The notes below the pieces were generated by a model, which was not told the origin of the DNA, ran no database searches, and was given only the letters and a program-made list of their open reading frames with translations. A stretch of DNA of 64,000 bases from Arthrobacter sp. zg-Y1110. Lineage in GTDB: Bacteria; Actinomycetota; Actinomycetes; Actinomycetales; Micrococcaceae. The stretch covers positions 248,001 through 312,000 of the forward strand of contig NZ_CP104273.1 of assembly GCF_025244865.1 (NCBI RefSeq), read 5' to 3'. Made by a program: the position numbers and the translations under genes. This document shows positions 9,942-57,015 of the stretch, one piece after another; position 1 is the first letter of the stretch, and every line of letters begins with the position of its first letter.

Positions 9942-9973
9942 GGTGAGAGTTCTCCCTCATGCCGCACACATAG
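9942..9973 (+). promoter_or_regulatory. Family B promoter P1 of ssb
   Basis: Textbook copy: GGTGAGAG at 9942-9949, 11 bases, GCCGCACACATAG at 9961-9973. No start codon at the leaderless position, so it gives a long leader that passes through the second promoter. Confidence 0.75.
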
Positions 9974-10040
9974 GAAGTAAGGAAGGGAAGCCTCCGTTTT
10001 AGGCCCCCGACCAGCAGTACCAGGCGTCGCCTGCGGAACC

Positions 10041-10073
10041 TGACAGCCGTCAGCTCCCGGCACGCATAGAAAC
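10041..10073 (+). promoter_or_regulatory. Family A promoter P2 of ssb
   Basis: TGACAG, CCGTCAG, ten bases, CGCATAGAAAC. Together with P1 it gives ssb two promoters of different families, which implies dual control. Confidence 0.7.
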
Positions 10074-10136
10074 AAACAGACCCGGAACCACCTCCGGTTC
10101 TGACACAGCCCCTATGGGCCGACGAAAGGCACCACC

Positions 10137-10637
10137 TTGTACAACCTCCCCTTCACCGGCAACCTGGTCACCGATCTCAAGCTGATCACCGAAACCAAGT
10201 CCGGCACCCCGCGCCTGAACTTCAAGGTCGCCATCAACGAGAACCCGGGCGGCGACCGCGACAAGGAAGTTACCCACTTCATCCCGTTCACCGCTTTCGG
10301 CTCCACCGCCGAGAACATGGCCGCTTCCCTGAAGAAGGGCCAGCGCGTGACCGTGATTGCCCGCCTGAAGACCTACGACAAGGAAGTCCAGATCGACGGC
10401 GAGGACAAGTCCATCACCATGATCGGCTTCACCGCCCAGGAAGTCGGCCCGGCACTGCGCTGGCAGACTGCCGAGGTCTCCAAGGCCGGTGGCGGCGCAC
10501 GCAAGACGGTCGATTCCTTCGCTGACGAGGAAGAGTCCGAAACTCCGGCCGCAAAGCCTGCCGCCAAGAAGGCTCCGGCCAAGCCGAAGGCCAAGCCCGT
10601 CGCCGAAGACAACGACGATGATGACGACGACTTCTAG
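10137..10637 (+). CDS. ssb: Single-stranded DNA-binding protein
   Basis: 166-residue SSB: one OB fold (residues 1-110, with FNFKVAI- and FTAFG-like strands) and a disordered Ala/Lys/Pro linker ending in an acidic tip DDDDDF, the usual docking site for replication partners. The TTG start at 10137 has GAAAGG nine bases upstream and gives the normal SSB N-terminus. Two tandem element promoters precede it and a strong terminator follows. Confidence 0.93.
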   Translation: MYNLPFTGNLVTDLKLITETKSGTPRLNFKVAINENPGGDRDKEVTHFIPFTAFGSTAENMAASLKKGQRVTVIARLKTYDKEVQIDGEDKSITMIGFTAQEVGPALRWQTAEVSKAGGGARKTVDSFADEEESETPAAKPAAKKAPAKPKAKPVAEDNDDDDDDF

Positions 10638-10650
10638 TCCGTCATAAAGG

Positions 10651-10694
10651 AAAGCCCCGCCGGTCCCCCGTGGACTGTGCGGGGCTTTTCTTTG
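10651..10694 (+). terminator. Rho-independent terminator of ssb
   Basis: AAAGCCCCGC (10651-10660) pairs with GCGGGGCTTT (10679-10688), then a T-rich tract. Its T-tract runs straight into the next family C motif. Confidence 0.85.
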
Positions 10695-10704
10695 TCTACG
10701 CATG
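10695..10704 (+). promoter_or_regulatory. Family C motif TCTACGCATG
   Basis: Directional copy immediately after the ssb terminator and before the membrane-HNH gene. The predicted RNA start, 8-11 bases on, leaves an AAAAG-type ribosome site before ATG 10744. Confidence 0.55.
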
Positions 10705-10743
10705 TCCCCCGGTGACCCTTCCCCCCTGCCGGAAAAGAACTCG

Positions 10744-11226
10744 ATGCTCCACGTCCCAGCCGTAGCCATGCCCGACCCGGGCAGCTTCACGTTCGACATT
10801 CAGGGCGTGCTCCACGGGGTCCTGGACGCCGTCCCCGCCCCTGTCCTTTTCATTGCAGCGATCCTGGTTGCCTTCGGCATCCTCAGCGCGCTCTCGCGCA
10901 GGCGTCCCGGCCCGAAGGATCCCACACGGCTCTTCTCCGCCAGCCAGCGCCGCGAAGGTTTTGACCGCGCCGGCGGACAATGCGAGCTGGGCACCATGTT
11001 CAGGCGATGCCGGCGGCCGGCCCATCATGGAGATCACTGGTACCCGTGGTCCAAGGGCGGATCCACCTCCATGGCGAACTTCGTTGCGGCCTGCGTGAAG
11101 TGCAACCTTTCCAAGGGGGCGAAGGTCCCCGGTGCGTGGGAGACGATGCGCCTGGAATCCCGGCGCCGCAAATACTTCGCCGCAGGCCTGAACACCAAAG
11201 CCGGAGAGCGGTTCAGCCAGCGATGA
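10744..11226 (+). CDS. Membrane-anchored HNH endonuclease
   Basis: 160 residues. A hydrophobic helix at about 31-50 followed by Arg-rich residues (inside-positive), then an HNH domain: a cysteine in GGQCE, HHGDHWYPWSKGG, a conserved Asn, then CVKCNLSK, giving the H-D-H...N...CxxCN signature with two zinc cysteine pairs. The catalytic domain is predicted to be cytoplasmic. ATG 10744 was chosen because an in-frame ATG at 10702 lies inside the promoter motif. The stop overlaps the next gene (ATGA). Placed beside the transfer genes it could process DNA at the membrane or defend against incoming DNA; neither is shown. Confidence 0.75.
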   Translation: MLHVPAVAMPDPGSFTFDIQGVLHGVLDAVPAPVLFIAAILVAFGILSALSRRRPGPKDPTRLFSASQRREGFDRAGGQCELGTMFRRCRRPAHHGDHWYPWSKGGSTSMANFVAACVKCNLSKGAKVPGAWETMRLESRRRKYFAAGLNTKAGERFSQR

Positions 11227-11549
11227 CCCGCCTGCCCGCCCACGGCCAGCTGTGGCAGGTGACCGGCCCGTCCGGTTACGGCATCTACCTCGGTGACGGC
11301 TACTGGAACGTCCTCGTCCGCTCCGGCGGGGAATACACGCTCACGGACACCCTCTCCCCCTGCCCTGTCCGCCTCGAAGAACTCCAGCCTGCAGGCATGA
11401 CGTGGGCCGATCAGTTCGACACGCTGGCAGCGGCCGGCGGGCTGGGAATCACCTGGGCTGATGAAGTGCGCCGCTACCGCGCCCAGGGACTGGCCGTAAC
11501 TGTGCCCCCGCCATGCCCCCGGGCGCCTCTGGAGCCCCGGGACCGGTAA
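11223..11549 (+). CDS. Hypothetical protein, 108 aa
   Basis: Starts in an ATGA overlap with the HNH gene stop, so it is probably coupled to it. Soluble, Trp/Gly-rich N-terminal half (QLWQVTGPSGYG), no motif recognised. It might be an immunity or accessory partner of the membrane HNH protein; this rests on gene order only. Confidence 0.65.
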   Translation: MTRLPAHGQLWQVTGPSGYGIYLGDGYWNVLVRSGGEYTLTDTLSPCPVRLEELQPAGMTWADQFDTLAAAGGLGITWADEVRRYRAQGLAVTVPPPCPRAPLEPRDR

Positions 11550-11550
11550 A

Positions 11551-15488: not shown

Positions 15489-15500
15489 ACCTGTGTGCGG

Positions 15501-18500
15501 CTAATCCATCCGCTGGCCGCCGGTGCTGGCCGGCACCGGCTCGACCTCGGCTGCCGGGGGCGGATTTACCGGCTGAGCCACGGGGCCCTGCTGGGTTTCC
15601 GCAGGGCGGACCCTGGACTGCCGGCTCTTCTGGTGCCACATGGCCTGGCGGTACTCGGCGGTCATCTGGTCGTTGACCGTCTTGCGGCCGAGCGTCCGGC
15701 GGTGGGCTTCCTGGGCTCCCTTCTTCGCCGCCCAGGCACCTGCGGCGACGGCCGGGATGGCCAGGGCCGGCGTGGAGGCAGCGAGCAGGAGTCCGGCTCC
15801 GGCGACCTTGGCGGTCGTCTTGAACGGCTTCTGCTTGAACTGGTCCACGGCGTTGGAGTAGCGGACTGCGGTGACAGCCTTGCTGCGCGCCACCTTGGTT
15901 ACCGCTTCGCCTGTCGCTGATCCTGCCCGACGTGCCAGACCCACGGAGGTCCGGACCGGGTGGGACTGCAGGTTGCCGAGGGTGACTGTTGCGCTGGCTC
16001 CGGCCTTCTGGACTGCGGACTTGGCTGCGATAGCAGCTGCGCCTGCAGTAAGACCTGCGGACCGGACACCGTTGCGGCTGGACTGGATCGGGTGCGAAAC
16101 GATCTTCTTGCCGGCGGTGCCTGCCTTGCCCAGTGCAGACCCGGCAACCATTGCACCGGAGACCGTCTTGGACAGGGCGCCCACAACCTGGCCGCCGGGG
16201 GTGACCTCGGGGCTGAGCCCAAGTTCTGCACGCTGGTCTGCGCGGAACTGCTTCGCGGCTGCCCGTTCTTCCTTGGCTGCCTCGGCCATCATCTGGCGGT
16301 CGCTGGCGGACATCTTGCCCTTGGCAACCTGCGAGTTGGGCACATTGCTGTTGAGCAGGCGGTTCTGAATCTCATCAGAACCGGCAACCATGTGGTTCTG
16401 CTCGCCGCCCTTGCCGCGGCGCTTGTTGCCGGACAGTGCAGCGGGCACTCCGCCGTTGATGGATTCGGAAGATCCTGCTGCCTTCGTACCGTTGGTCCCG
16501 GCAGGTGCAGCGGTGCCGCGGCGTGTCGATCCGGCTCCGCCCAGGCGGCCTCCGGATGCCTTGCCGAGCACAGTGCTCATGCCGCGCTTGCCTGCGCCCT
16601 TGGCTGCGCCCATGGCCCGGCGTCCTGCGTTGCCGGCCTTGCGGTCGAGCAGTGCGCCTACACCGCCGACGGCGGCGCCGCCGGCAGCTGCCATCGTCCC
16701 GCCCCACGCCATGGCGGCGGAGAGCTTGAACGGTGAGGGAACCTTGAGCACCTTGGTGAACATCATGTGCAGCAGGTACACGGCGATCAGCGGCGACAGG
16801 CCCGACCAGAAGATAGCCACCAGCGACGTTGCACCGCCCAGGAACGAGTTACCCAGGTTCTGCAGCATCAGAGTGATGATCGAGATCAGCGCGAACAGCA
16901 GCTGGATCGCGAAGGTGAAGATGTTGATGCCCACCAGAGTCTTGAGGTAGTTGCCGAACTTGTCGAAACCGGCGTTGGGCATCAGGGCCATGATGACCAT
17001 GAAGACGCCGGTAATGATCATGACGACCATGGCGACCTTGGCGATGATGATCGAGATGGCCAGGAGGCCGAAAACGGCCAGCATTGCCAGTGCCGAGATG
17101 TTGTAGGCGAAGACCGCGGTCATGCCCTGTGCGTTGGAGTTGCCGTGGAGGGTGAGGATGAAGTCACGCACGTCCAGTGCAGCGCCGTCGTTGCCGTATC
17201 CGGTACCCGTGGTGCGTTCCTGGACCTTGTCCTGGCTGGAGTCCCAGTTGAAGGCGCCGGCCCCGTCGGAGTCGCTGGTGAACCACGATGCGCAGTTGCC
17301 TGCATCGGCCTTCTTGTCCTTGTCACCCTTGGCGAAAGGATCCGCAATCTTCCACGAACTCGCTTCCTCAAGGCTGCCGCCGCCGTCGCTGTTCGCAAAC
17401 CGGCAGGTGGCCCAGGCAACAAGGGACTTATCCGTATCGGCCTTGGATCCGGGGACGAAGGCGATCTGGCTGTAGTTGAAGTTCTTGATGGCCCGGTCGG
17501 CCGGCATGATGCGGTTCATTGTGGCGCGCACCGTGGAGGCCGAGTTGTCGGCACCCCGGTCCATATCTTCGGTGGTGCTCATGACCCGGGATCCTGCGTT
17601 CCACTCAAGCAGACGGCACCATGAGTTCTCATCGAGCCGGTTGGCTCCCTGTCCGGCGTTACCGAACTGGGCGGTGCGCCAGGTCTGCAGGCCGGTGGTT
17701 TCCCACAGGGAGGACAGGATCAGTGGTACGCCGGAGGCAAGGGACTCGGCAGTGTCGGCGTAGGCGTTCTTGTAGCCCATCTTCAGCGACAGGAGGTAGT
17801 TGTCGCAGGAGAGCAGGTTCGCCTGGTTCATCTGCCCTGCATTGGTGGTGGAGAGCACCAGTGCGCCGGCCGGGGCCGAAGCGAGAGAGGAGATTGTCCG
17901 GTTCATGGTGGTCACGATCCAGCCCGGCGACATGACGCCCGGGACGTACGGCTGGTTCTGGGCTGCTTCGGAGTAGGGCTGTTCGCTGGATCCGCTCTTG
18001 CCGCCGCCGGTCGAAGCCATGGCTCCGGCCGTCATTGCTGCAAGCAGGCCGATGACGACGCCCTTCTGGGCAATGGCTTTCCATGGCATCTGACCGCTCT
18101 TGCGGCCCTTGAAGAGCAGAATGACGATCGACAGGACGACCATGCCGGTGAGCAGGGCTGAATCCATGACGGCGTTGCCGATGGTGGCGACTACGGAGTC
18201 CGCTGCGCCGCCCATCTTGTCGAGCATGCAGAAGTTGATGGCGAATGCGGACATGCCGGTGCCCAGGGACCACATGAAGTTACCGGAAGACATGCCGGTG
18301 GAAATGATCGAGTGGCGCTGCATGAGCTCTGCGGTGTCCGACAGGAAGGTGTTGTCCAGCCGGGAGTGCATGGACGAGGTTGCGTCGGCCCAGCGGTTCA
18401 CCGGAAGCAGGTCGTTGCTGGCTGCGCTCGAGGTTCCGCCGGCAGTAGTTCCACAGACGGACTTGGCTGAATTTGGTGCGCCCGCTCCGTCGATGACGGC

Positions 18501-20041: not shown

Positions 20042-21064
20042 TTACTTCTCGGCGTGCTTGTTGTTCGCGTACGAGATGGCCGATTCCCACATGGGCTGTG
20101 CCTTCTCGGCGCCGAGGCGTTCGAGCATGTCGACGACCTTTTCCTGCTGCTCGACGTCGAGGTCTTCGCCGAACGGTGCGAACAGGGCTTCGGTGGCAGC
20201 GTTGTCGTTGCCCTGTGCCCAGTCGTTGCAGGCAGCCATGATGCCGCCCTCGTGCTTGCTCATCACCGAGCGGTGGCGGGTGACGTGGCGCTGGGACAGG
20301 GATGCCTCACGCGACAGCGGTACTCCGGTGCCTTCGGCCAGGGCGTTCCATGCCAGACGGCGGGCCTTTGCCTTGCTGGCCACGCCCTTTTCGTCCAGTG
20401 CATCGAAGGCGCGGTCCATGTAGGAGTCCACGGGGACATTGGCCATCTGTTCGACGGCGACGAGGCTGGCGCCCATGGAGCCGGACATTTCGTCCTCGGA
20501 AGTGTTGGCGTCAAGGGAGCGCTCGACGGTGGTTGCGATTCGGAAGGCCTTGGACGGCTTGTGGCGGGGGTCGTGCCAGGTGTCGAAGATTTCCTGCTCG
20601 ATGGCTTTTTCCTCAGCAACGGTGGGCATGCGCTGCTCGCGGTTGATGATTTCCTGGCACTTCTCTTCGAACAGCCGGTAGGCAACGCGGTCTTCAGCGC
20701 GGAAGACGGTCTGGGTGCTCTGGGAGGTGAAGTTCCGGGCAGTGCGGTTCACCCAGCCCCGGAGGTTTTCGATGTTCTTGCGTTCCTGGATGGCCTTGAG
20801 GGTGATCAGGACCGTCTCCTGGGTGATGTCGTCCGCGTCCACGGTGTTGGACTTGGCCTTCTGGCCCATGCGGGCCTGCCAGTAGCGGGCGGAGTCCGAA
20901 GCCTGCTTCAGGATGGCTTCGGCCGACAACCCGTAAGACTCGAGGGAGAGGGTGAGCGAAGGCTCTGCGTGTGTGGTGGCGGCGAACTGGCCGCCTGCGG
21001 GTACGCCCTCGGGGACCCGTGCGAAGTTGGTCTTACCGGCTGCCGTTGCTGTATCAATGCTCAT
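20042..21064 (-). CDS. ECF-sigma-like protein with GGQFA N-terminus
   Basis: 340 residues. N-terminal block (about 19-32) PEGVPAGGQFAATTHAE. Residues about 76-115 resemble sigma region 2 (DADDITQETVL, then NLRGWVNRTARNF), the core-binding and -10-reading helices of ECF factors. A possible region 4 helix-turn-helix lies near 240-270 (ALAEGTGVPLSREASLS). A longer-than-usual middle separates them. ATG 21064 is 8 bases after the family B variant, fixing the start. It may read one of the element's promoter families; HHpred-type comparison would settle the fold. Confidence 0.6.
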   Translation of the reverse strand: MSIDTATAAGKTNFARVPEGVPAGGQFAATTHAEPSLTLSLESYGLSAEAILKQASDSARYWQARMGQKAKSNTVDADDITQETVLITLKAIQERKNIENLRGWVNRTARNFTSQSTQTVFRAEDRVAYRLFEEKCQEIINREQRMPTVAEEKAIEQEIFDTWHDPRHKPSKAFRIATTVERSLDANTSEDEMSGSMGASLVAVEQMANVPVDSYMDRAFDALDEKGVASKAKARRLAWNALAEGTGVPLSREASLSQRHVTRHRSVMSKHEGGIMAACNDWAQGNDNAATEALFAPFGEDLDVEQQEKVVDMLERLGAEKAQPMWESAISYANNKHAEK

Positions 21065-21069: not shown

Positions 21070-21082
21070 TTCTGTGTGCGGC
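21070..21082 (-). promoter_or_regulatory. Family B variant for the ECF-like gene
   Basis: GCCGCACACAGAA (T of CACAT replaced by G), with ATG exactly 8 bases further on. The deviation could give weaker or differently controlled expression of a regulator. Confidence 0.5.
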
Positions 21083-23783: not shown

Positions 23784-23815
23784 CTATGTGTGCGGCAGGC
23801 TCAGCCGCTCTCACC
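23784..23815 (-). promoter_or_regulatory. Family B promoter, flotillin operon
   Basis: Full copy: GGTGAGAG, 11 bases, GCCGCACACATAG. A leader of about 70 nt precedes a gene with a normal ribosome site. Confidence 0.75.
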
Positions 23816-26775: not shown

Positions 26776-26780
26776 TTCCC

Positions 26781-26812
26781 CTATGTGTGCGGCACGTCCG
26801 GTGCCTCTCACC
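26781..26812 (-). promoter_or_regulatory. Family B promoter for the M23 peptidase
   Basis: GGTGAGAG, 11 bases, GCCGCACACATAG, and GTG 8 bases after the T. One of the cleanest leaderless cases. Confidence 0.8.
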
Positions 26813-27188: not shown

Positions 27189-27201
27189 CTATGTGTGCGG
27201 A
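27189..27201 (-). promoter_or_regulatory. Family B promoter for the 27149 gene
   Basis: TCCGCACACATAG with GTGCACAG in the upstream-box position. The predicted leader is about 34 nt and carries a ribosome site. Confidence 0.65.
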
Positions 27202-27257
27202 AGGGTCCGTTTCTGTGCACGTTTCAGGCCCTTTTCGGAAGGTATTTTCGGCAGGTT

Positions 27258-28861: not shown

Positions 28862-28866
28862 GCCCA

Positions 28867-28898
28867 TCATGTGTGCGGACCGGAGATTCCCGCTCCCC
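28867..28898 (-). promoter_or_regulatory. Family B promoter, zinc-repeat gene
   Basis: TCCGCACACATGA (one change from consensus) with GGGGAGCG 11 bases upstream; ATG 8 bases after the T. Confidence 0.65.
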
Positions 28899-32085: not shown

Positions 32086-32098
32086 ATCTGTGTGCGGC
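32086..32098 (-). promoter_or_regulatory. Family B variant before the redoxin gene
   Basis: GCCGCACACAGAT with a TGAGCATT box upstream, about 55 bases before ATG 32030. Matches the variant used by the ECF-like gene. Confidence 0.4.
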
Positions 32099-36072: not shown

Positions 36073-36104
36073 CTATGTGTGCGGCTGACCCTGGAAGTGT
36101 GCCC
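36073..36104 (-). promoter_or_regulatory. Family B promoter, proximal copy
   Basis: GCCGCACACATAG with a weak upstream box; GTG 36067 begins 8 bases after the T. Confidence 0.7.
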
Positions 36105-36191: not shown

Positions 36192-36223
36192 CTATGTGTG
36201 CGGCGCGATGGAGTTTTCTCACC
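36192..36223 (-). promoter_or_regulatory. Family B promoter, distal copy
   Basis: GGTGAGAA, 11 bases, GCCGCACACATAG. Tandem with the copy at 36073. Confidence 0.7.
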
Positions 36224-41888: not shown

Positions 41889-43037
41889 GTGTTCCTCTTC
41901 CGAGAGTTCGTCCGGGTTCTGCCCGCTAATCCCTATGTGTGCGGCAGACTCAGCCGCTCTCCCCAGTGCCGCTGCCTCTTCCGGGTGGTCGTCTTCATCC
42001 GGAGGGAAGAACGTGACCGTGTCGCTGGAGTCGTCGTCAAGGCGGTCCGCCACCGCTGCCGGCGCCGGAACAACGAGCCCCGGGCGCAGGGTGGGGATGC
42101 CCAGGTCGGTGGCCGAGGGAATCTGGTCCGCGACCTTCTCCGACACCTTCTTGCCTTCGGCCTTGGCCACCGGGCAGGAGTTCACCAGAGGGCACCAGCC
42201 GCACAGCGCGGAGACCTTCGTGGGGAAGGCCTGGGACTTCATGTAGTTGTTGTGGCGCTTCCAGGAGAGCTGGAAGACCTTCAGCGTCTTATCCATCGCC
42301 CGCTTGGACAGGTCGATGTCGCGGGACTTGCCGAACTTGGTGTAGAGCACCTTGCCGGCCACCGGCATTTCACCGAACTCGATCCGGACGGACTCGCCGT
42401 AGATCCGTACCTGGTCCCCGTGGTCGTCGCCGAAGTAGGTGTTCAGCACCTTGCCGGTCTTGTAGTCCTCGGGGATCAGTCCGGTGACGCCGTCGACCGT
42501 GCCTTCGGAAATGCGGTCGATGAAGCCGACGGTCGGGACGTCGCGGATGACGACGCCGTCGATCTTGTGCTCGCGGCCCTTGACGATGATCGACTTGGGA
42601 TCCTCGATGACGAAGATGCCCTCGTAGGCGGTCATGACCTCGCCGATCCAGCGGGAGCGGGCGATCTTCACTGCGGCGCGGAGAGCATCCGAAGCTCCGG
42701 GGTCGTCCGCCCACATCTTGTCGGCGTACCGGACGGTGATCTTCTCGGCCTCCCGCATGGTCCGCTGGTGTCCGGGAAGGGCGTAAAGGTCCTCCAGGAC
42801 GGCGTGGGCGCTGGTGCCCAGGGGTGCGGGCGCGAAGGGGTCCTCATCGTCGCTGCGCAGCAGGCGTTCGCCCACCCAGCGTGCAGCGCAGGACTGCATC
42901 GACTTGGACGTGGAGGCAGACAGGGCCTTACGGCGCAGCTGGCTGTCGATGAGGCTGTCATCGGTGACGACAAGTTTCTTGCCGTCCCAGGCGACCTTGT
43001 CGCGGAGCAAAGGCGGCTTCAGCGTAATAGTGGTCAT
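41181..43037 (-). CDS. Cas4/RecB-like PD-(D/E)XK nuclease with extra C-terminal domain
   Basis: 618 residues. RecB-type nuclease motifs: an early Cys in MQSCAARW, GTSAHAVLEDL (His), IDRISE (Asp), EDYKTGK (ExK-type), QVRIYGE, and a CGWCPLVNSC cluster that with the first Cys forms the 4Fe-4S site of Cas4/AddB-like enzymes (about residues 70-300). An acidic linker follows, then a separate helical domain and an acidic Pro-rich tail. ATG 43037 is 10 bases after the family A T. A complete family B promoter lies inside the gene (41933-41964), just before an internal ATG with GAGGA. Confidence 0.8.
   Translation of the reverse strand: MTTITLKPPLLRDKVAWDGKKLVVTDDSLIDSQLRRKALSASTSKSMQSCAARWVGERLLRSDDEDPFAPAPLGTSAHAVLEDLYALPGHQRTMREAEKITVRYADKMWADDPGASDALRAAVKIARSRWIGEVMTAYEGIFVIEDPKSIIVKGREHKIDGVVIRDVPTVGFIDRISEGTVDGVTGLIPEDYKTGKVLNTYFGDDHGDQVRIYGESVRIEFGEMPVAGKVLYTKFGKSRDIDLSKRAMDKTLKVFQLSWKRHNNYMKSQAFPTKVSALCGWCPLVNSCPVAKAEGKKVSEKVADQIPSATDLGIPTLRPGLVVPAPAAVADRLDDDSSDTVTFFPPDEDDHPEEAAALGRAAESAAHIGISGQNPDELSEEEHMAIIEGKPWDTYTKNGELNPISYTAIGVFGIAEMALEELHKAGQPVTGKNVKALAATFRHVIVTAQDEWTGSTSMADAANTRLRGALRSVLATMPMPFGQPKEAWDEWVSKAVKRCSSIVAVAHYVFEGVEDAEPWGNLSTGPTLSVVPEPAAEAAEPEAEKAAEEEPAPVARKARPARRVVKPVPAPAEDETEADEFEEDPKPEPKAKPKPVTITVDDLEFPADDDEDEFAYGA
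41933..41964 (-). promoter_or_regulatory. Internal family B promoter
   Basis: GGGGAGAG, 11 bases, GCCGCACACATAG, inside the nuclease coding sequence and in the same orientation. Its eleven-base spacer is nearly identical to that of the flotillin operon promoter. Confidence 0.7.
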
Positions 43038-43580: not shown

Positions 43581-46500
43581 TTATTCGATTTCCGAGATCT
43601 CCTGGGACTCGTCAATGCGCTTTCCGCCCTGCAGGATCACGTCCACCTCGATGGGCACACCGGAGATACGGCGGTCTCCCACGGGCCTGCGGACCGTTGA
43701 CAGCAGGGTGCCGGAGGAGTTCCTGGACCGGGGAATGTAGCTGGGAGCCAGCTCTTCATCCCACACGGATGCCCACGCCGAGCCGGTTCCCTGGCCGTAG
43801 GGAATCAGTACCGGGTAAGCAGCCTGGGCCTTGGAGAAGGCGGTGTGGACATCGAAGAGGATTACCTTGCGCGGAACTCCGTCGCTGTCATTCGCCGTGA
43901 TGACCGTACCGATCGACATGCCTCCCGGGCGGGGCGTTCCGTCGCTGGATCCGCCCATCCATCCGAGACCGTGGTTGGCCAGGGATTCTCCCCTGTCAGT
44001 TCCTTCGATCGGCGGCCGGTTGGGGTCGTCACCGGAGATGACGTGGGCTGCGCCGGATGCCAGGAGGGCAGACAGTGCGCGCACCAGGGAGATGCCCGGC
44101 GCAGCCTGCTGGTTCTCCGTGTGGGCCTTGTTCACGAGCTGGATGATCTCCCCGCCGAGGCGGTTGACGGAGAACAGGCGGATGAAGTCGGTGCCCATGT
44201 CCAGTTCCTGTGCCAGCTGCTTCAGGATCTCGAAGGTCAGCAGGACGTCGGCGGCCAGGGACGTGGTGCGCTCCAGAGAACCGGAGGCGGCGCCGAGCTT
44301 CTCCATGATGGTGCTTGCCGTGGACTGGACCTGAAGACGCTTCTCTTCAAGGCTCGTCATGTAGTTTTCCCAGCCGCCGAGCGTACCGATGGCAGAGCGG
44401 CGGATGTAGCGCAGCACGTGGGAGGTGAAGCGCGCCTGCACACCGTCGTTGCGGGCCATCTTGTTGATATGGCTGGTCGGGGCCTTGGACGGGTTCAGCT
44501 TGCCCGGGCCGATGAACACCGGGATGAGGCGCTCCTTGGCCGAAGGAGTCGTCAGCTCATTCTCGGCCGTCATGATCAGCTGGGTCATGGGCTTGTTGGT
44601 GCGCTTGGCCGTCATATCCGCGTTCATGCGGCCCTTGCCGGCGTTGTTGAAGATCGCGCGGGTCATATCGGAGAGCTTGGCGTCCTCCTGCTCGGCCTGG
44701 CGCTTCACCGAGGACGGTGCCATGTCGTCGATAACCCAGATCGGGGTGTACGCAAGGGCGTTCTCGATGGCGGCCGCGGTGTCCTTGGCCTGGCCGGGCA
44801 GCTTGTCCTGCCAGTCCGACTTCGTCCGGGCCCAGAAGTACATCATGCACTGGGCGGTCCAGGACTTGCCCTTGCCCTTCGGACCCCACAGGTAGATGGA
44901 GGTGCGCGGGCGCAGGGGAATCGTCGGGCGAAGGGCCACGGCCAGCACGAGCGCAGCGGTGGAGTCCTCGGTCCATGCCTTGTTGGTCACGTAGGCATCC
45001 ACGACGGCCTGGAAGTCCCTGCGGACCATTTCCCGGTACGCTTCGTCGTCGTAGTCCCCGTCCACGAGGTCGCCGACGCCGTAGTGCTGGGCCACCGGAA
45101 CCTTGCGGTCGTCGACGCCGCAGACAGCGGTGCCGTTCAGGTCGGCGTCGCCGATGACCTGGTCGCCGATGAGGTACACGGGGTCTCCGCCTTCAACGGG
45201 AACCCAGCCCATCTGCATCCACTTGGTCTTCAGGACGGTTTCCTCGGAGCGGTGCGCCTTCACTGCCGTGATCCACGCTTCGCCCTTCTGGGCGCGCGGC
45301 GGCCAGTACGGGTGGCGCTGCAGGTCCCACGGGATGACCGCACCCTGGCGGTGCCAGTCGGCCGGCATGTAGCTGAGGATGTGCTCCGGGCCGGTGACGA
45401 TGGCCTTCTGCTCGCTTCCGCCCGGACCTGACCAGGCGACCTCGACCTCAACCTGGGAGTCCTCGACGTCGGTGAGCTGAACATTCGGGTTGAACAGCCC
45501 GGTGCGCAGTTCCTGGTCGGTGGGCTGGCGTACGGACTCCCGGCTCAGGATGCGTCCGCCCAGATCGACGACGGTGCGCCATTCGTAGCGGCCGACGGAA
45601 CCGCCGGGGCCGTCATTGACGGCTACGCACTCTTCAACGGACAGTCCGTTCTTGGATACGCGCCAGTTGCCCGGGCGCTCCTCTTCGCTGCGCGGCGGGG
45701 CAGCGGGCATGTTCGGGGTCAGCTGGGCCACGAGCTGGTCCCAGGTACCGACCTTGGCGAGGTAGTCGTCCACGCCGGCCTTGGCCATTTCACCGTCGTC
45801 GCCGGAGTTGATTTCCGGGTTCAGGAACAGGATCTCGGACATCTTGGACTTCTCGTCCAGCTGCAGGAACAGCTTCTGCGCAGCTGCGTGGACGTGGGGG
45901 TTCACCGACAGGTCGGCGTCGAAGGCGATCCAGCCGATGCGGCCCTTGAGGGCGATTTCGCGCCAGTCCATCGGGTGCTGGTGGGCGTTGTGGATGCCGG
46001 CAATGGAGATGATGAGGATCCGGTCCTCTTCGGGAATCCGGTCCATCAGGGTCCGCAGCGCGGCGACGGGGTCGGCAACACCTGCGGACTTCAGCTCATC
46101 CCAGCTCGCACCGTTGGCGTGCAGGTAGGCGGACAGGGCGGCGTCACCCTTGAGCATGCCTTCGGCAAACATGACGACCGGGGTGGTGTCGATCCAGGCC
46201 ACGGGGGTGGCCGGGTGCAGGTCCAGAGGGGTGACGGCATCCTTGACGAATTCGTACTTCATCGGCTTGCCGGACTTGTTGAAGGACGGGAATTCCGGGC
46301 GCAGCTGGTAGGTGAGCGGAATGAGCTCTTCCTGGCGCCGTTCAGCGATCTGCAGGCTGGCCACGGAGTACCACGGCATCTGCATGGCGTCCTTGCCCGG
46401 TTTGGCCAGACTGGCCTTCCAGCGCCGGCCCTGGTCGGTGGTCGCCTTCACGCCCATGGTCTTGAGTTCTTCGGCGAAGTTGGTGTGGTCGATGCGCTTG

Positions 46501-46730
46501 TAGCCGCGGGCTGCTGCGACCAGCGGGGCGACACCCGAATCGGCAAGCTTCTCGGCTCCGGAGCCGGCAATGTGGGAGTGGTAATCCTCTGCCGTCCAGG
46601 ACGGGAGGTCGGGGAGGCTGAAGCTGACGCCGTTCAGTGACGGGGCCTGCCGGGTTGCTGCGGGAGTCTGGGCGCCGGCGTCCGATGCCGATTCGGAGGT
46701 CGTCAGGCCGGGCTCTGTGTTCTGTTCCAT
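43581..46730 (-). CDS. Replicative primase-helicase (DUF3854/DUF927-like)
   Basis: 1049 residues. N-terminal half with a TOPRIM-like DUF3854 region: FAEGMLKGD near 185-193 (Glu...Lys) and AFDADLS near 268. The C-terminal half is a P-loop ATPase: GPKGKGKS near 612-620, Walker B VIDDM near 665, MTAENE sensor near 720. This architecture is common in plasmid and phage replication proteins that prime and unwind at the origin. ATG 46730 is 11 bases after the family A T; longer in-frame starts would cross the promoter. The adjacent AT-rich region is the probable target. Confidence 0.78.
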   Translation of the reverse strand: MEQNTEPGLTTSESASDAGAQTPAATRQAPSLNGVSFSLPDLPSWTAEDYHSHIAGSGAEKLADSGVAPLVAAARGYKRIDHTNFAEELKTMGVKATTDQGRRWKASLAKPGKDAMQMPWYSVASLQIAERRQEELIPLTYQLRPEFPSFNKSGKPMKYEFVKDAVTPLDLHPATPVAWIDTTPVVMFAEGMLKGDAALSAYLHANGASWDELKSAGVADPVAALRTLMDRIPEEDRILIISIAGIHNAHQHPMDWREIALKGRIGWIAFDADLSVNPHVHAAAQKLFLQLDEKSKMSEILFLNPEINSGDDGEMAKAGVDDYLAKVGTWDQLVAQLTPNMPAAPPRSEEERPGNWRVSKNGLSVEECVAVNDGPGGSVGRYEWRTVVDLGGRILSRESVRQPTDQELRTGLFNPNVQLTDVEDSQVEVEVAWSGPGGSEQKAIVTGPEHILSYMPADWHRQGAVIPWDLQRHPYWPPRAQKGEAWITAVKAHRSEETVLKTKWMQMGWVPVEGGDPVYLIGDQVIGDADLNGTAVCGVDDRKVPVAQHYGVGDLVDGDYDDEAYREMVRRDFQAVVDAYVTNKAWTEDSTAALVLAVALRPTIPLRPRTSIYLWGPKGKGKSWTAQCMMYFWARTKSDWQDKLPGQAKDTAAAIENALAYTPIWVIDDMAPSSVKRQAEQEDAKLSDMTRAIFNNAGKGRMNADMTAKRTNKPMTQLIMTAENELTTPSAKERLIPVFIGPGKLNPSKAPTSHINKMARNDGVQARFTSHVLRYIRRSAIGTLGGWENYMTSLEEKRLQVQSTASTIMEKLGAASGSLERTTSLAADVLLTFEILKQLAQELDMGTDFIRLFSVNRLGGEIIQLVNKAHTENQQAAPGISLVRALSALLASGAAHVISGDDPNRPPIEGTDRGESLANHGLGWMGGSSDGTPRPGGMSIGTVITANDSDGVPRKVILFDVHTAFSKAQAAYPVLIPYGQGTGSAWASVWDEELAPSYIPRSRNSSGTLLSTVRRPVGDRRISGVPIEVDVILQGGKRIDESQEISEIE

Positions 46731-46734
46731 ATAT

Positions 46735-46770
46735 GTTTCTATGCGCCCCGGGACCTGACGGGTGACAACT
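46735..46770 (-). promoter_or_regulatory. Family A promoter for the primase-helicase
   Basis: TTGTCAC, CCGTCAG, ten bases, CGCATAGAAAC; ATG 11 bases after the T. Confidence 0.75.
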
Positions 46771-46840
46771 ATCGGCCCGAAGTGCACTCGGCTGCCCCTG
46801 CGGGTCGGTTCAGTCGGCAGAGTCGGCGTCTGCGGCACGG

Positions 46841-51517: not shown

Positions 51518-52186
51518 ATGGATCAGAAGGACATCGACTGGGTCAGCCGTTGGGTTGTCGCCCAGTGCGAGCCCTTGATCGCCACCGCCGTACGGCAGGA
51601 GATCGACGAGCATTTTGCCGGCATCGCCGCCAGCGACCCTCTGTGGCTTTCGGCATGGGCTTCCGGGCTCGTTTCCGACCTGGTCCGTTCCCTCGACCCC
51701 GAGGATCCGTGGCGCAACCTTGAAGTGGACGGCGACCGCGCCCTGCTTCCCGACGGCTCACCGTTCGGCACCTGGGTGGATGCCACCGACATCGTTCCGC
51801 CCTCCGTCCCGGACCGGCGCTCCGACCTCGGCCTGGCAGCCGTTGACATGCCCTTATCGGCACGCTCAGCCGAACTCATTGCCGTAGCCGCCGGCGGATG
51901 GCGCCGGACACTGGACTGGTTCCGTGACAACCTGGCCACCGCACCGGTGCTGGAAGGCGACCGGGCGGCCGAACTCCTGACCACCGTTGAAGAAGCCATC
52001 CGCTGGGCAATGTTCCGCCGGCGTCTCTTCGCAGGTATGGAAGACCCGTTCATCCCCGTCAGCGCAGTCGCATGGATCTCGCGCGCCGGCAAGATGGTCA
52101 ACGGCGAGGCGTGGGACGAAGCCCGCGCGGCCCGCGTGCTGGAAAGCAACAGGATCCACCCGGGAACGTACGGCCAGTTCGTCTAG
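51518..52186 (+). CDS. Hypothetical protein, 222 aa
   Basis: Soluble acidic protein, Trp-rich (WVSRWVV, WLSAWAS, GWRRTLDW). GAGGAG lies seven bases before ATG 51518. No recognised domain. Divergent from the MinD-like gene. Confidence 0.7.
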   Translation: MDQKDIDWVSRWVVAQCEPLIATAVRQEIDEHFAGIAASDPLWLSAWASGLVSDLVRSLDPEDPWRNLEVDGDRALLPDGSPFGTWVDATDIVPPSVPDRRSDLGLAAVDMPLSARSAELIAVAAGGWRRTLDWFRDNLATAPVLEGDRAAELLTTVEEAIRWAMFRRRLFAGMEDPFIPVSAVAWISRAGKMVNGEAWDEARAARVLESNRIHPGTYGQFV

Positions 52187-52212
52187 AGAGTCCGCCCCTG
52201 CCGCACACATAA
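52181..52212 (+). promoter_or_regulatory. Family B promoter for a membrane micro-protein
   Basis: GCCGCACACATAA; ATG 52218 lies 8 bases after the T. Confidence 0.7.
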
Positions 52213-52322: not shown

Positions 52323-52354
52323 GGGCACTTTCCTGCCCTCAGCCGCACACATAG
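52323..52354 (+). promoter_or_regulatory. Family B promoter for the DnaJ leader
   Basis: GCCGCACACATAG; GTG 52360 lies 8 bases after the T. Confidence 0.7.
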
Positions 52355-52359: not shown

Positions 52360-52464
52360 GTGAGCACCTCATCAGATCCTTTCCGGACCCTGCCTGCAGG
52401 CCGGTCCGTGCTGTCTTCGTCCCTTGACCGCGTCCGCATGCCCTTCCGGGGCGTGCAGGGGTGA
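52360..52464 (+). CDS. Leaderless 34-codon ORF coupled to the J-protein
   Basis: Starts [10 protein letters not shown] and its TGA (52462-52464) overlaps the GTG of the J-domain gene (GTGA). No Shine-Dalgarno is present before either start, so ribosomes probably reach the J-protein through this ORF. One of the clearest examples of the leader architecture. Confidence 0.55.
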
Positions 52465-53810
52465 ACAGCTACGAGGTCCTGGGCGTACGGCCCGACGCCA
52501 CCCACGACGAAATCAAAAAGGCCTACCGGGCCCTGGCCCGACGCACCCACCCCGACGTCGGCGGGGATGCCATGAAGCCTCTTTTCCTCTCGGTCACCAG
52601 TGCATGGGAGTCCCTCTCGGACCCCGACAAGCGCGCTGCCTACGACCGGGCCAACGGGCTGGGCCACCCTGCGACTCCTCCCCCGGCACCGGATCCTGCT
52701 CCGCGGGCTGACCGGCGAAGCGGGCCCGATACGCACGGCGAAGCCCCGCCTGAAAGTCCCGACTTCGAGGACTTCTGGGCAGGAGCCGGTCCCGCCGGAG
52801 CGAAAGGTCCGACCAGGGACACCCGCCCTCCGTCGGCTCCCCGAAAGCAGGCACCTGCCCCGGCAGAGCGTTCCTGGCGTGAGATCTTCGACACCACTGT
52901 GCAGCGCCGGCGGCGGCACCCCCTGCCGGTGGCCATCGGGGTCCTTTCCGCCGCGTGGGCAGCCCTTCTGATCTTCCTGGGACTGAAGGAACTGATCCTT
53001 TCCGGCCCCGAAGGTGTCCTTCCCCGCGGATCCGGAGTCCTGACCTACGCTGTGTGCTGGGTCGCCGGAACATGGCACTGCAGCCGCCAGGTCCGCGGGG
53101 GTACGGGCATCGGATGGGGGCCGCTGACGGCCGCCGGCGTAGGCGCACTCACTTTCTGGGCGCTGAACCGTGCGCATCTGGGCGCCTCGGCCGCCGCGGT
53201 GGCTGCAGGACTGGTGCTCAGCCTTGCCGTTGCCGCCTGGCTGCGCCGCCGTATCAATCTCAGGGAGGCCGGACAGGGTCCGGGTTCCCCGGGCATCACT
53301 TCCTTCAACCGGCCGGATGAGTCACCTGAGGAGGCCGAGGCGCGGCGCATGACCCGCCGGGTGCTGGGCGAGCTGCTCAAGACCCCGGGTACAAGGGTGC
53401 TGGAGAACGCCCCGGTGCGCGGCCGGGCGGTAGCCCAGATCATTATCAACGGGACAAGGGTGGCTGTCGTTGACTCCCGGATTCTGCCTGACTGGGTCCA
53501 TGAAGACCTGACGGGCGACCTGTCCGTAGACGGGGCGAAGGTCATTCCGAATATCGAAACGAGCATTGCCGGTGATGTGGCCGACGTCCGCTCCAATGTG
53601 CGCAGCGTCAGGGGCTGGCTTATTGTCCACCCCTCGGAGAAGGGCAGTGCAGATCTGAAGCCGGTGCGCGGTGTTCCGGTTACGGCGGCGTCACCGTCAG
53701 AAGCACTTGAGCAGATCGGTGCCTGGCTGGCCGAGGGCCCCAAAGCCGGGCTCATCGACCCTGACCTGGCCTACCGTGTCATCCGGGGCGCCTCCCCTGC
53801 TGTCCGCTAA
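52461..53810 (+). CDS. Membrane J-domain protein with NERD-like C-terminus
   Basis: 449 residues. J domain at 1-65 with HPD near 32-34, so it should stimulate a DnaK ATPase. Linker, then four hydrophobic helices (about 152-172, 183-200, 213-232, 238-258). The C-terminal domain (about 290-449) has strands AQIIING and VAVVDS that recall the nuclease-related NERD fold, though the usual catalytic Asp is not evident. The GTG start overlaps the leader stop. It may recruit Hsp70 to the membrane or transfer channel. Confidence 0.7.
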
Positions 53811-53815: not shown

Positions 53816-53847
53816 GGGGAGTTGCCGGACCCCTTCCGCACACATAA
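53816..53847 (+). promoter_or_regulatory. Family B promoter for the 53853 gene
   Basis: GGGGAGTT, 11 bases, TCCGCACACATAA; ATG 53853 lies 8 bases after the T. Confidence 0.7.
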
Positions 53848-53852: not shown

Positions 53853-54023
53853 ATGGAAACCAACCTTGCAGAGAACGAAACAGACATCCGCAGCATCGGC
53901 ACCGCCGTGCTGTGCAACGACCAGGGAAGCCCGGTGATTTCCGAGCTGTCAGCAGATGACGCCTGGACGGTTGCTCAGCTGCAGGATGCCGAAGAGGAGC
54001 CCATGCTCCGCGACGCTGCCTGA
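53853..54023 (+). CDS. Leaderless small acidic protein, 56 aa
   Basis: Begins METNLAENETD, soluble and strongly acidic, with no Cys-rich or membrane features. No Shine-Dalgarno; the start is set by the 8-base rule. Its last 49 bases overlap the 3' end of the convergent zinc-ribbon gene. Unknown; very acidic small proteins on mobile elements are sometimes inhibitors of DNA-binding proteins, but that is speculation here. Confidence 0.55.
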   Translation: METNLAENETDIRSIGTAVLCNDQGSPVISELSADDAWTVAQLQDAEEEPMLRDAA

Positions 54024-55425: not shown

Positions 55426-56484
55426 GTGGATCAGACGATGGAAACCAAGGGCCGCTGGGTCCTCATTGACACCCTCCTGGACGACCAGTTCAGCCTCCTG
55501 AGCATCGGCGACATCGACTACGCCGAGGCAAGCGTGCGAAAAAACCTCGACGTCATCGGCCGCGAGCTGTTCATCCCGCGCATGAAGGAGGTCTGCGCCG
55601 AGGTCCCCTTCATCGAAGAGGAAGTGGAGGCGCGCGGTGCCCGGTGGACCGTCCGCGTCCAGGCCATCCTCTCCCCCATCAACAAGATTGTCCTTGCAGT
55701 CCTTGCCATCTACGTCCCCGCGGGCGAAACGATCCCCGAACCGCCCGTCGTAGGCGGCATCGAGTGGAAGGTCATGGACGGCGGCAACATCGACACCGTC
55801 TGGGACGACAATATGTTCGCCCTGTACGAGGTTCCGCGCTCCGGCGCGGGCAGCGCGACCGGAGACATGAACGGCTGGGTCAATTACCTCATCGCCCCCG
55901 AGGACCGGGCCCGCATGAAGGTGGTCATCGACAAAGGCCTGGCCGATCCCGACGGGCTGCGCCACACCGTGGCTTTCCGGATCCTGACGGGCACCCGCAC
56001 CGACAACCCCGGATCCAAGCAACTGGAGACGGTCTCGCGCGTCCTGGTGGATTCCGAGCGCGGAGTGAAATGGCTGCGCAGCATCGCCCGCGAAGTCACC
56101 AATCTGACCCCTGCCCTGCCGCAGGAAATGGACAACCAGAGTGCCGCCCTCGTCCGCGCCGCCTTTGACCTGATAAGCAACAAGGCCATGTTCGCTGTGG
56201 ACACCTCGACCTGGCAGGTCTTCATGACCTCTCCGAAGTGGCACGAGTTCGGCCTGCAGCGGCCCCGGAACAGCTACCTGCCGCACAGCATCCACCCGGA
56301 TGACTTCACAACGTTCGCCAGCCTCTGCTCCGAAGGCGGCTCCGGCGGCGCCGTCATCATCCGCGGCCTGCAGGAGGACGGCAGCTACGCCCCCTACAGT
56401 GTCACGGCCAGCAGCGGACACTTCGACACCCGGGGCAAGCGGTACGTCATCGTGGCGGTCATCCGGGCCGAAGACGCCGCCTAG
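55426..56484 (+). CDS. PAS/sensor-like regulatory protein
   Basis: 352 residues. An N-terminal helical part, then two regions with the WxxD/FALYEVP...PEDRARM and FMTSPKWHEF...HPDDFTTF patterns that look like tandem PAS-type domains (about 85-195 and 245-345). No kinase or helix-turn-helix was seen. GTG 55426 follows GGAAG. A stress or metabolite sensor is plausible; partner unknown. A terminator follows. Confidence 0.5.
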   Translation: MDQTMETKGRWVLIDTLLDDQFSLLSIGDIDYAEASVRKNLDVIGRELFIPRMKEVCAEVPFIEEEVEARGARWTVRVQAILSPINKIVLAVLAIYVPAGETIPEPPVVGGIEWKVMDGGNIDTVWDDNMFALYEVPRSGAGSATGDMNGWVNYLIAPEDRARMKVVIDKGLADPDGLRHTVAFRILTGTRTDNPGSKQLETVSRVLVDSERGVKWLRSIAREVTNLTPALPQEMDNQSAALVRAAFDLISNKAMFAVDTSTWQVFMTSPKWHEFGLQRPRNSYLPHSIHPDDFTTFASLCSEGGSGGAVIIRGLQEDGSYAPYSVTASSGHFDTRGKRYVIVAVIRAEDAA

Positions 56485-56504
56485 GCCCCGGCCGGCACGG
56501 ACCC

Positions 56505-56540
56505 AGGACCGGCACCCGAACGCGGGTGCCGGTCCTTTGC
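56505..56540 (+). terminator. Rho-independent terminator
   Basis: Perfect thirteen-base stem (56505-56517 with 56524-56536), then TTTGCGT. Confidence 0.8.
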
Positions 56541-56547
56541 GTACCCC

Positions 56548-56579
56548 GGGGAGAAACAGCAGGGGGTCCGCACACATAT
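56548..56579 (+). promoter_or_regulatory. Family B promoter for the 56631 gene
   Basis: GGGGAGAA, 11 bases, TCCGCACACATAT; the predicted leader is about 46 nt. Confidence 0.65.
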
Positions 56580-56630
56580 AGCTCAACAACGAACCCCGGC
56601 ATCAGGCCGGAACGAAAGTGAGCGCATCCC

Positions 56631-56927
56631 ATGTTTGAACTCCTTGCCGGCCCCGCATTCTTCATCGCCCTGCTGATCACAGGCGCTGCACTGATCGCGC
56701 TGGCTTTCGGCATGAGCCCCCGCACCCCGGCCCCCGTGCCGGTCCCTGCCGCTCCTGTTCCGACCCCCTCGAAGGTTCTCTCCCAGGTTGGCTTCGCAGA
56801 GGTTGACGGCCGCGTCGTAGCGTTCCGCTCCGTAGTCCGCCAGGGCGAAGACCTCACCGACCAGCAGCTGGCCGCCTTCCAGTCCCACCTGCTCGCCCCG
56901 GCACCCCGCTCGTCATACGCCGCCTAA
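56631..56927 (+). CDS. Single-pass membrane protein, 98 aa
   Basis: Hydrophobic helix about 5-28, Pro/Ala/Val-rich spacer, then a small soluble C-terminal domain (about 45-95). No motif recognised. Monocistronic between its own family B promoter and a terminator. Confidence 0.7.
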   Translation: MFELLAGPAFFIALLITGAALIALAFGMSPRTPAPVPVPAAPVPTPSKVLSQVGFAEVDGRVVAFRSVVRQGEDLTDQQLAAFQSHLLAPAPRSSYAA

Positions 56928-56941
56928 CCCCCTCCCGATCT

Positions 56942-56976
56942 GAAGCCCGGCCGGACGCCATGTCCTGCCGGGCTTC
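56942..56976 (+). terminator. Terminator-like hairpin
   Basis: GAAGCCCGGC pairs with GCCGGGCTTC; a long loop and little T-run. Confidence 0.6.
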
Positions 56977-56983
56977 ACTGCGT

Positions 56984-57015
56984 GGTGAGAGATACCGGAG
57001 GGTCCGCACACATAG
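56984..57015 (+). promoter_or_regulatory. Family B promoter for the PBP operon
   Basis: GGTGAGAG, 11 bases, TCCGCACACATAG. A leader of about 170 nt is predicted before the PBP gene. Confidence 0.7.

Follow-up and report, generated by a model that had tools for sequence, protein, structure and literature searches.

The 64,000-base stretch of DNA analysed here (the window) comprises bases 248001-312000 of C2 (contig NZ_CP104273.1, 400,603 bp), the smaller of the two contigs in the genome of Arthrobacter sp. zg-Y1110; the chromosome contig has 3,506,099 bases. We found that a bipartite motif, here called class I, recurs with rigid internal geometry in the window and throughout C2, that within this genome it is restricted to the plasmid, and that it is conserved at orthologous genes of related plasmids. 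From its sequence and placement, we think it probable that the motif serves a giant plasmid as the core promoter of a private transcription system, and that it is most likely read by host core RNA polymerase together with a plasmid-encoded RpoD-like sigma factor. That the motif acts as a promoter, where its transcripts would start, and which protein would read it are what we infer from these observations.

A bipartite motif at gene starts across the plasmid

The exact 12-mer KCCGCACACATA occurs 121 times in the whole genome; all 121 copies are on C2 and none is on the 3.5-Mb chromosome. A weight matrix spanning positions -22 to +15, with the first C of CCGC as position 0 and the start codon excluded, yielded 150 class I sites on C2 at ≥10 bits and 144 at ≥20 bits, and the class I set is therefore cleanly separated. 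At 10 bits there was no match in the reversed C2 sequence, and with no matches in reversed controls a chance origin of the motif was ruled out. The matrix also had no match in a chromosome sample of 27 pieces, which covers 540 kb of the 3.5 Mb (the exact 12-mer was counted over all 3.5 Mb). By these counts the motif is absent from the host chromosome; a preliminary description of this DNA had anticipated that it would be absent or rare there.

The profile of 138 CCGCACACAT sites on C2, in which the ten letters of CCGCACACAT were fixed by the criterion for picking sites, consists of CGGKGAGAG at -21 to -13, KCCGCACACATAGGGG, and Y-[AG]-T-G at +16 to +19. After matrix refinement, whose seeds were chosen by that same 10-mer, each letter of CCGCACACAT stood at 97-100%. 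In the window, the full 32-base bipartite pattern with ≤3 mismatches was observed 6 times versus 0.01 expected, and the 13-base core alone, with the same tolerance, 37 times versus 19.6 expected. A lax single box is therefore weak evidence, and the pair of boxes is strong evidence. On C2, the upstream box lies at the exact spacing with ≥6 of its 8 letters in 80 of the 150 sites; at other shifts within ±6 it was found 9 times at +2, 4 times at -2, and otherwise never, including at ±1. The matrix gives 16 class I sites in the window, and there the box at a distance of 11 bases keeps ≥6/8 letters in 8 and ≥5/8 letters in 10, so the earlier statement that at least nine copies keep this exact distance was about right. 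All 19 positions previously listed for the core and its variants carry the sequence given for them. The sites at 2305, 4749 and 52323 carry GGGTTCTT or GGGCACTT, not GGTGAGAG, and the extent first assigned to the motif (9942-57015) was too narrow, since it ranges over the whole 400-kb replicon.

Placement of the sites on C2 is directional. A gene or RNA start lies within 300 nucleotides (nt) downstream on the same strand for 138 of the 150 sites, compared with 39 when the sites are flipped and ~20% of random positions. Positions more than 60 nt into a called gene account for only 2 of the 150 sites but for 73% of random positions. The motif therefore sits at gene starts across the replicon, as predicted, and is neither equally frequent inside genes nor randomly oriented. 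Of the copies listed earlier, the one at 41933-41964 lies inside a called gene. Two of the 12 sites without a start within 300 nt sit 362 and 412 nt upstream of the transfer-messenger RNA (tmRNA) gene and the tRNA array. Genes were called with a home-made caller that scores Shine-Dalgarno (SD) sites, not with a published one.

The nearest named relative of C2, W01, is a circular Arthrobacter caoxuetaonis plasmid of 374,851 bp, to which 81% of a 25-kb query matched at 82% identity. Plasmids pYJN5-1 (W03) and pPA-B-2242 (W04) also match this query and are less similar than W01, and the window's large protein of 1068 amino acids (aa; 43581-46787) is common to pACHL01 (W02) and three Curtobacterium plasmids: pS16 (W05, NZ_CP126255.1), W06 and one more. 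Among the 472 genes called on C2, 142 have BLAST matches on exactly the four plasmids W01-W04, and 41 more match all five of W01-W05, with W05 taken as 300 kb in this comparison; it was analysed whole later, and W03 as 440,000 of its 440,465 bases. No phage record gave a near-identity match to window positions 1-25000.

The class I grammar is shared by the four named Micrococcaceae plasmids W01-W04, where it also stands at orthologous genes. For C2 class I genes with a match on W01, the W01 gene was class I in 102 of 113 cases, class II (see below) in 1 and without a class in 10; class I was kept at 37 of 55 orthologs on W02, 33 of 53 on W03 and 33 of 49 on W04. Orthologs were best BLAST matches above 60 bits, not reciprocal ones, and the same table counts 158 class I sites on W02 and 139 on W03. 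When 9-mers were counted, without prior selection, within 60 nt upstream of called starts, CCGCACACA ranked first on C2 and on W01-W04, with total copies of 188, 178, 166, 145 and 138 versus 2, 2, 1, 5 and 1 in the reversed sequences. A 194,810-base A. terrae contig, which was outside the matrix training, has 76 class I sites and none when reversed, with a start codon at +17 in 52 of the 76; it encodes an RpoD-like sigma as well as a sigma of the type found in the window. Only 7 of 295 genomes of the family have ≥4 exact copies of the 12-mer, and the large window protein also has a strong match in the two with the most, G000 (121) and G115 (39). Larger pieces of G186, G161, G163, G155, G140 and G122 contained 0-2 class I sites per genome. 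No such repeat was present in 41 kb each of two other records with plasmid RpoD-like sigmas, Rhodococcus pRLCBG43 and Streptosporangium NBC_01495, and a Tsukamurella record looks like a chromosome fragment.

Geometry of the predicted start point and the candidate sigma factors

In about half of the class I sites an ATG or GTG lies 17 nt after the first C of the core. An ATG exactly at +17 and in the frame of the called gene was found in 65/143 sites on C2, 54/135 on W01, 75/160 on W02, 71/139 on W03 and 67/142 on W04. As annotated in the deposited W01 record, starts lie at +17 for 12 of the 25 forward CCGCACACATA sites at 300-350 kb, at +16 for 1 and further downstream for 12. Start codons alone do not account for the signal at +17: at 300 sites of the five plasmids that lack NTG at +16 to +18, +17 is a purine in 95%, and a pyrimidine-purine (YR) step is found there in 225, compared with 13 to 100 elsewhere between positions 13 and 22. 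C2 has 67 such sites; a called start follows at +22 to +300 in 56, and 44 of these 56 have an SD-like site; an SD-like site precedes 264 of all 472 called C2 starts, the gene caller itself favouring SD sites.

Relative to the predicted start at +17, the motif has the two-box geometry of a sigma-70-type promoter, with GTGAGA at -36 to -31, an 18-bp spacer, inside the 16-19 bp range of such promoters, and CACATA at -12 to -7 inside KCCGCACACATAGGGG, all rigidly spaced. GTGAGA resembles the consensus TTGACA. Among 269 first genes of the chromosome sample, TANNNT is most frequent at -12 and -13 relative to the start codon (25 and 15 genes), the pattern that leaderless transcription by the host's main sigma should give, and the CACATA at -12 to -7 of class I start codons occupies the same register. 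TANNNT itself is found in the -10 register in 0 of 150 class I sites, i.e., none has a host-type -10 element.

Given this geometry, transcription would start at a purine following a pyrimidine, 8 nt beyond the T of CACAT and inside the range of 7-9 bases proposed earlier. In about half of the sites this putative start is the first base of the ATG or GTG, so that the mRNA should be leaderless, a point absent from the preliminary description. The position 17 bases after the first C of CCGCACACAT may then serve as a predictor of leaderless start codons on these plasmids. On W02, W03 and W04 the core often continues as ACATG (+6 to +10), which creates an ATG at +8, in frame and nine bases ahead of the conserved start; gene callers may therefore begin such genes three codons early.

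The β′ subunit of RNA polymerase (PF04998) matched only the chromosome and nothing on C2, and a plasmid-borne multi-subunit polymerase in the manner of giant phages was thereby ruled out. No T7-type polymerase is named in the W01 feature tables read, although no profile search for one was run. Sigma region 2 gave 19 matches in the genome, of which 16 are chromosomal. C2 encodes three sigma-like proteins (Table 1): an RpoD-like one, a FliA/WhiG-like one and a 340-aa protein in the window, and only the first has regions 1.2, 2, 3 and 4. With a sigma gene containing regions 2 and 4 on the plasmid, putative targets restricted to the plasmid, and β′ encoded only by the chromosome, the sequence supports the original idea of an element-specific promoter served by a dedicated sigma factor or polymerase partner.

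A divergent RpoD-like sigma is present on all five Micrococcaceae replicons (C2 and W01-W04), on W02 and W03 inside proteins of ~990 aa. In a tree of ten sequences with weak inner support, these plasmid proteins group together (support 100), and a long branch separates them from host SigA, to which they are 44-49% identical. Both C2 and the A. terrae contig have the RpoD-like sigma, and there the upstream box accompanies 98 of the 150 and 59 of the 76 sites, respectively; it is present at 1 of 18 CCGCACACAT sites on W05 and 4 of 26 in G288, where an RpoD-like plasmid sigma was not found. A class I core precedes the RpoD-like sigma gene itself, with an ATG at +17 on C2 and W01 and at +18 on W02 and W03; by its sequence, the gene should therefore be subject to self-feedback. 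In the mechanism we propose, host core RNA polymerase loaded with the 370-aa RpoD-like sigma would read class I promoters, and the sigma would feed back on itself through the class I promoter of its own gene. Transcripts from about half of the sites would be leaderless, and the others would carry a leader, often with an SD-like site tens of nt further on.

Several observations weigh against the RpoD-like sigma as the reader. Although motif and sigma occur together on C2, W01-W04 and the A. terrae contig, the core is found without a detected sigma of this kind on W05 and in G288, G038 and G105. In a phmmer search W05 had no full-length RpoD-like sigma, and its one region-2 match is the FliA/WhiG-like protein (W06 has two region-2 matches). 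Nevertheless, W05 has 18 copies of CCGCACACAT (0 reversed), 14 of them with ATG or GTG at +17, but the upstream box accompanies only 1. It is therefore probable that something other than this sigma can read the core, which weakens the explanation we favour and strengthens the alternative of another plasmid sigma. W05 also has a different dense grammar, CCGCGCATAG, with 105 copies and a start codon at +17 in 41, and a dense plasmid grammar thus needs no RpoD-like protein. Copies of CCGYACACAT number 48 in G288, 27 in G038 and 25 in G105 (reversed 1, 2 and 8), yet each of these genomes has one full-length RpoD-like match, presumably chromosomal, with weak partial ones in two; the motif contigs examined in G288, G038 and G035 gave no RpoD-like plasmid sigma. 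The assemblies of G288, G038 and G105 consist of 90, 110 and 350 contigs, so a plasmid sigma gene may be missing from them. In G038 the upstream box is intact (10/12) and still no such sigma was found, which opposes the pairing of box and protein.

Further points on the same side are that the RpoD-like sigma gene of W04 has no class I core in the 400 nt upstream, that C2 has two more sigma-like genes, and that 125 of 267 C2 operons are without a class I-III promoter (class IV was left out of this count). Six further genomes strongly match the large window protein (best matches at 35-55% identity) and have only 0-1 copies of the 12-mer. Because the plasmids share descent, the joint occurrence of motif and sigma cannot be counted as five separate events. 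A sigma dependent on its own promoter would also face a start-up problem in a new host. These findings might be reconciled if the core were shared with class II and read there by the sigma type found in the window, also present on W05, and the upstream box marked the RpoD-like sigma; G038 does not fit this arrangement unless its assembly lacks the sigma gene.

We weighed four other explanations. Class I could be read by a different plasmid sigma, above all the ECF-like protein in the window (20042-21064) or else the FliA/WhiG-like one (C2:130245-131012), with the RpoD-like sigma reading something else or only adding recognition of the upstream box. Both candidates exist on C2, the in-window type is encoded there and on all five compared plasmids, including W05 with its core, its ATG at +17 and no RpoD-like sigma, and there are genomes with class I cores in which no RpoD-like plasmid sigma was detected. 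However, W02 and W03, with their 158 and 139 class I sites, lack the FliA/WhiG-like sigma, and the in-window protein has only a partial region 2, its own gene having a class II-like promoter without a class I box. As only the RpoD-like protein has the full set of regions 1.2, 2, 3 and 4 and the upstream box is common where it is present, we regard a different plasmid sigma as unlikely. It seems more doubtful still that the motif is reached by host SigA holoenzyme recruited through a plasmid DNA-binding activator or a sigma-remodelling protein that is itself no sigma. CCGCACACAT exceeds an ordinary -10 element in length, which would suit a reading of double-stranded DNA as well, but none of the 150 sites has TANNNT in the register where the chromosome shows its peak, and the spacing of box, core and start is rigid and sigma-70-type.

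An alternative sigma of the host, exploited by the plasmid, is suggested by the chromosomal location of 16 of the 19 region-2 matches. Such a sigma would, however, have no chromosomal target of this form, given that the 12-mer has no copy on the 3.5-Mb chromosome. In addition, few genomes of the family (7/295) have ≥4 copies, and the top two also match the large window protein; we consider this explanation highly improbable. The fixed distance of 17 nt to a start codon in about half of the copies, and the existence of start-associated sequences in cluster K phages (PMC3203893, in the excerpts available), would suit a translational start-associated sequence or a protein-binding repeat rather than a promoter. 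This we find scarcely credible: many sites lie tens to hundreds of bases from a start, some of them before tRNA and tmRNA genes, and most sites without NTG at +16 to +18 keep the YR step at +17. A translation signal was rejected on the ground that many class I sites are far from starts.

Further putative promoter classes and features of the window

At least four putative promoter classes, I to IV, are found on C2, and their positions in the window are collected in Table 1. Class II has the core GCCGCACACAG and a different upstream box, and its start codon is most often at +16 in C2, W01 and W04 (on C2, +16 in 22 of 41 sites and +17 in 7). The CACACAG copies at 21070, 32086 and 61209 had been taken for variants of the class I motif; together with an unlisted one at 15489 they form this separate class, which the preliminary description did not recognise. 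A freely trained class II weight matrix collapsed into class I, and class II was therefore counted by strict pattern. CCGCACACAG occurs 41, 39 and 32 times on C2, W01 and W04, which have the FliA/WhiG-like sigma, and 11 and 8 times on W02 and W03, which are without it, a distribution that might pair class II with this sigma. W05, however, has that sigma but only 2 copies of CCGCACACAG. Also bearing on the pairing is the gene for the 340-aa sigma-like protein, which is itself preceded by a class II-like core, present on C2 as well as W01-W04 and in looser form on W05; its counterparts are 51-73% identical on W01-W04 and 26% on W05. Class II was kept at 28/33 orthologs on W01, 3/22 on W02, 4/20 on W03 and 8/20 on W04.

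Class III, TCTACGCATGTT, has 23, 20, 40, 33 and 29 matches on C2 and W01-W04 (reversed 1, 0, 0, 1 and 2), 1 on W05 (reversed 1) and 0 in the chromosome sample (reversed 1), and was kept at 15/18, 9/13, 11/14 and 10/11 orthologs on W01-W04. Few orthologs swap classes. Class IV, CCGTCR-N11-GCATAGA, has 23, 23, 17, 14 and 24 matches on C2 and W01-W04 (reversed 0, 0, 1, 0 and 0), 3 on W05 (reversed 1) and 0 in the chromosome sample. Both classes are found on W02 and W03 and thus cannot depend on the FliA/WhiG-like sigma alone. Nine of the 23 class IV sites of C2 are in the window, before or near dnaE, an ssb-like gene, the large primase-helicase-like protein (a label that comes from reading its sequence, not from a family match), a nuclease and an SNF2 gene; outside the window they precede counterparts of nrdI, nrdF and a thymidylate synthase. 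These gene names come from Pfam and from W01 annotation carried over by BLAST pairs. The sites at 4887 and 10065 lie downstream of putative class I promoters belonging to the same genes, and the one at 46743 lies just inside the called start of 43581-46787, which is therefore probably too early. The called start of 26125-26811, where a class I site is located, is probably too early as well. At 41933..41964, an ATG in the frame of the surrounding gene lies at +56 (window 41888) after the SD-like GGAAGAGG, and this site is a possible internal promoter for a shorter product of gene 41181-43037.

Table 1. Putative promoters and sigma-like genes. Positions are those of the window unless prefixed C2.
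Feature	Position	Strand	Sequence features	Gene context
Class I	2305..2336	+	variant upstream box GGGTTCTT	before DNA polymerase III alpha-like gene 2435-4699 (Pfam)
Class I	4749..4780	+	variant upstream box GGGTTCTT	before dnaE-like gene 4975-9468 (Pfam)
Class I	9478..9509	+		before gene 9614-9919
Class I	9942..9973	+	perfect bipartite copy	before gene 10137-10637 (W01 counterpart annotated single-stranded DNA-binding protein)
Class I	23784..23815	-	perfect bipartite copy	before gene 23239-23709
Class I	26781..26812	-	perfect bipartite copy	at start of called gene 26125-26811
Class I	27189..27220	-		before gene 26868-27149
Class I	28867..28898	-	ATG at +17, predicted leaderless	in frame with called gene 28136-28870
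Class I	36073..36104	-	GTG at +17, predicted leaderless	gene 34907-36067
Class I	36192..36223	-	second site, upstream of 36073..36104	gene 34907-36067
Class I	41933..41964	-		inside called gene 41181-43037
Class I	52181..52212	+	ATG at +17 (52218)	opens 32-codon frame ending 52316
Class I	52323..52354	+	variant upstream box GGGCACTT, GTG at +17	before gene 52461-53810
Class I	53816..53847	+	ATG at +17, predicted leaderless	gene 53853-54023
Class I	56548..56579	+		before gene 56631-56927
Class I	56984..57015	+		before penicillin-binding-protein-like gene 57188-59518 (Pfam)
Class II	15489..15501	-	core GCCGCACACAG	
Class II	21070..21082	-	ATG at +17	before sigma-like gene 20042-21064
Class II	32086..32098	-		
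Class II	61209..61221	+	ATG at +16	
Class III	677	+	TCTACGCATGTT	
Class III	10696	+	TCTACGCATGTT	
Class III	11552	+	TCTACGCATGTT	
Class III	19587	-	TCTACGCATGTT	
Class III	40541	-	TCTACGCATGTT	
Class IV	643	-		
Class IV	4887	+		
Class IV	10065	+		
Class IV	26102	-		
Class IV	30318	-		
Class IV	31639	-		
Class IV	43049	-		
Class IV	46743	-		
Class IV	51411	-		
340-aa sigma-like (ECF-like) protein	20042..21064	-	weak, partial sigma-70 region 2	
FliA/WhiG-like sigma, 255 aa	C2:130245-131012			
RpoD-like sigma, 370 aa	C2:355261-356373		regions 1.2, 2, 3, 4	outside window

Other features of the plasmid were noted in passing. Two DNA polymerase III alpha-like genes stand side by side in the window (2435-4699 and 4975-9468, Pfam), and C2:240634-246097 contains class Ib ribonucleotide reductase genes, judged by the W01 counterpart. 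A tRNA region at C2:142456-155610 has 37 tRNA genes and the tmRNA gene, with a few more tRNAs elsewhere on C2; putative class I promoters lie upstream of both the tmRNA gene and the tRNA array, and on W01 35 tRNAs lie between 140 and 160 kb. W01 additionally encodes SecY, SecE, SecG, ClpX, LigA and type IV pilus genes. The end of the C2 contig (C2:400305-400590) is an array of ACTAACAGACTTCCGG-type repeats, and its opening looks similar by eye.

Comparison with known systems

Plasmids are usually assumed to use the promoters of their host. A broader reading, which we put forward tentatively and hold to be less than even in likelihood, is that Micrococcales giant plasmids are transcriptionally self-contained replicons, whose ≥4 promoter classes would be read by their own sigmas in a timed programme. 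Class I would be general and class IV would precede genes for replication and nucleotides; since the plasmid brings tmRNA and an almost complete set of tRNAs, the host would supply mainly core RNA polymerase and ribosomes. If this is true, something plasmid-looking follows a virus-like expression strategy. Replication, tRNA and tmRNA genes would be among those placed behind a promoter that the chromosome lacks; genes so placed would be shielded from regulation by the host and would stay unexpressed in a cell lacking the plasmid's sigma factor. The same property would offer an orthogonal sigma-promoter set for actinobacteria.

Phages of Bacillota reportedly carry sigma factors, through which a mobile element redirects the host polymerase. 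The difference here is that no capsid, portal or terminase is named in the feature tables read for W01, the closest relative of C2, tables that are incomplete. Among the matches listed from the open-licence literature, neither the class I promoter nor the transcription of these plasmids is described; pACHL01 is named once in each of two papers and Arthrobacter caoxuetaonis in none. Within the same matches we found no precedent for the scale of the system, its RpoD-like sigma, its leaderless half and its several classes.

Single aspects do have parallels, which we cite from excerpts of the sources. In cluster K mycobacteriophages, start-associated sequences (GGGATAGGAGCCC) are directional repeats immediately upstream of many gene starts and, like class I, are conserved with the gene family; 17-bp inverted repeats lie upstream of about half of them (PMC3203893). 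The excerpts of that paper mention no single box at a fixed spacing, and the class I consensus, compared by eye, is unlike GGGATAGGAGCCC. In mycobacteria, leaderless mRNAs account for nearly a quarter of transcripts (PMC4633059, as excerpted). That figure refers to whole transcriptomes, whereas here the predicted fusion of promoter and start codon concerns about half of the sites of one plasmid class.

SigN (ZpdN) of the Bacillus subtilis plasmid pBS32 is a precedent for a plasmid sigma whose regulon is confined to the plasmid. According to the excerpted text, SigN is plasmid-encoded, its regulon is predominantly on the plasmid, the analysis of that paper found no chromosomal SigN promoters, and it exerts positive feedback on its own gene (PMC6751061). 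The two systems thus share a plasmid sigma, plasmid-restricted targets, which here are putative, and an autoregulatory promoter, which here is predicted from sequence. They differ in that pBS32 is an 84-kb plasmid whose promoters were mapped by 5′-end sequencing and whose sigma, possibly of a new subclass, was experimentally tested (PMC6751061, same excerpts), whereas the system described here, known from its sequence, would combine an RpoD-like sigma with ~150 sites on 400 kb, about half of them predicted to be leaderless, and at least four promoter classes.

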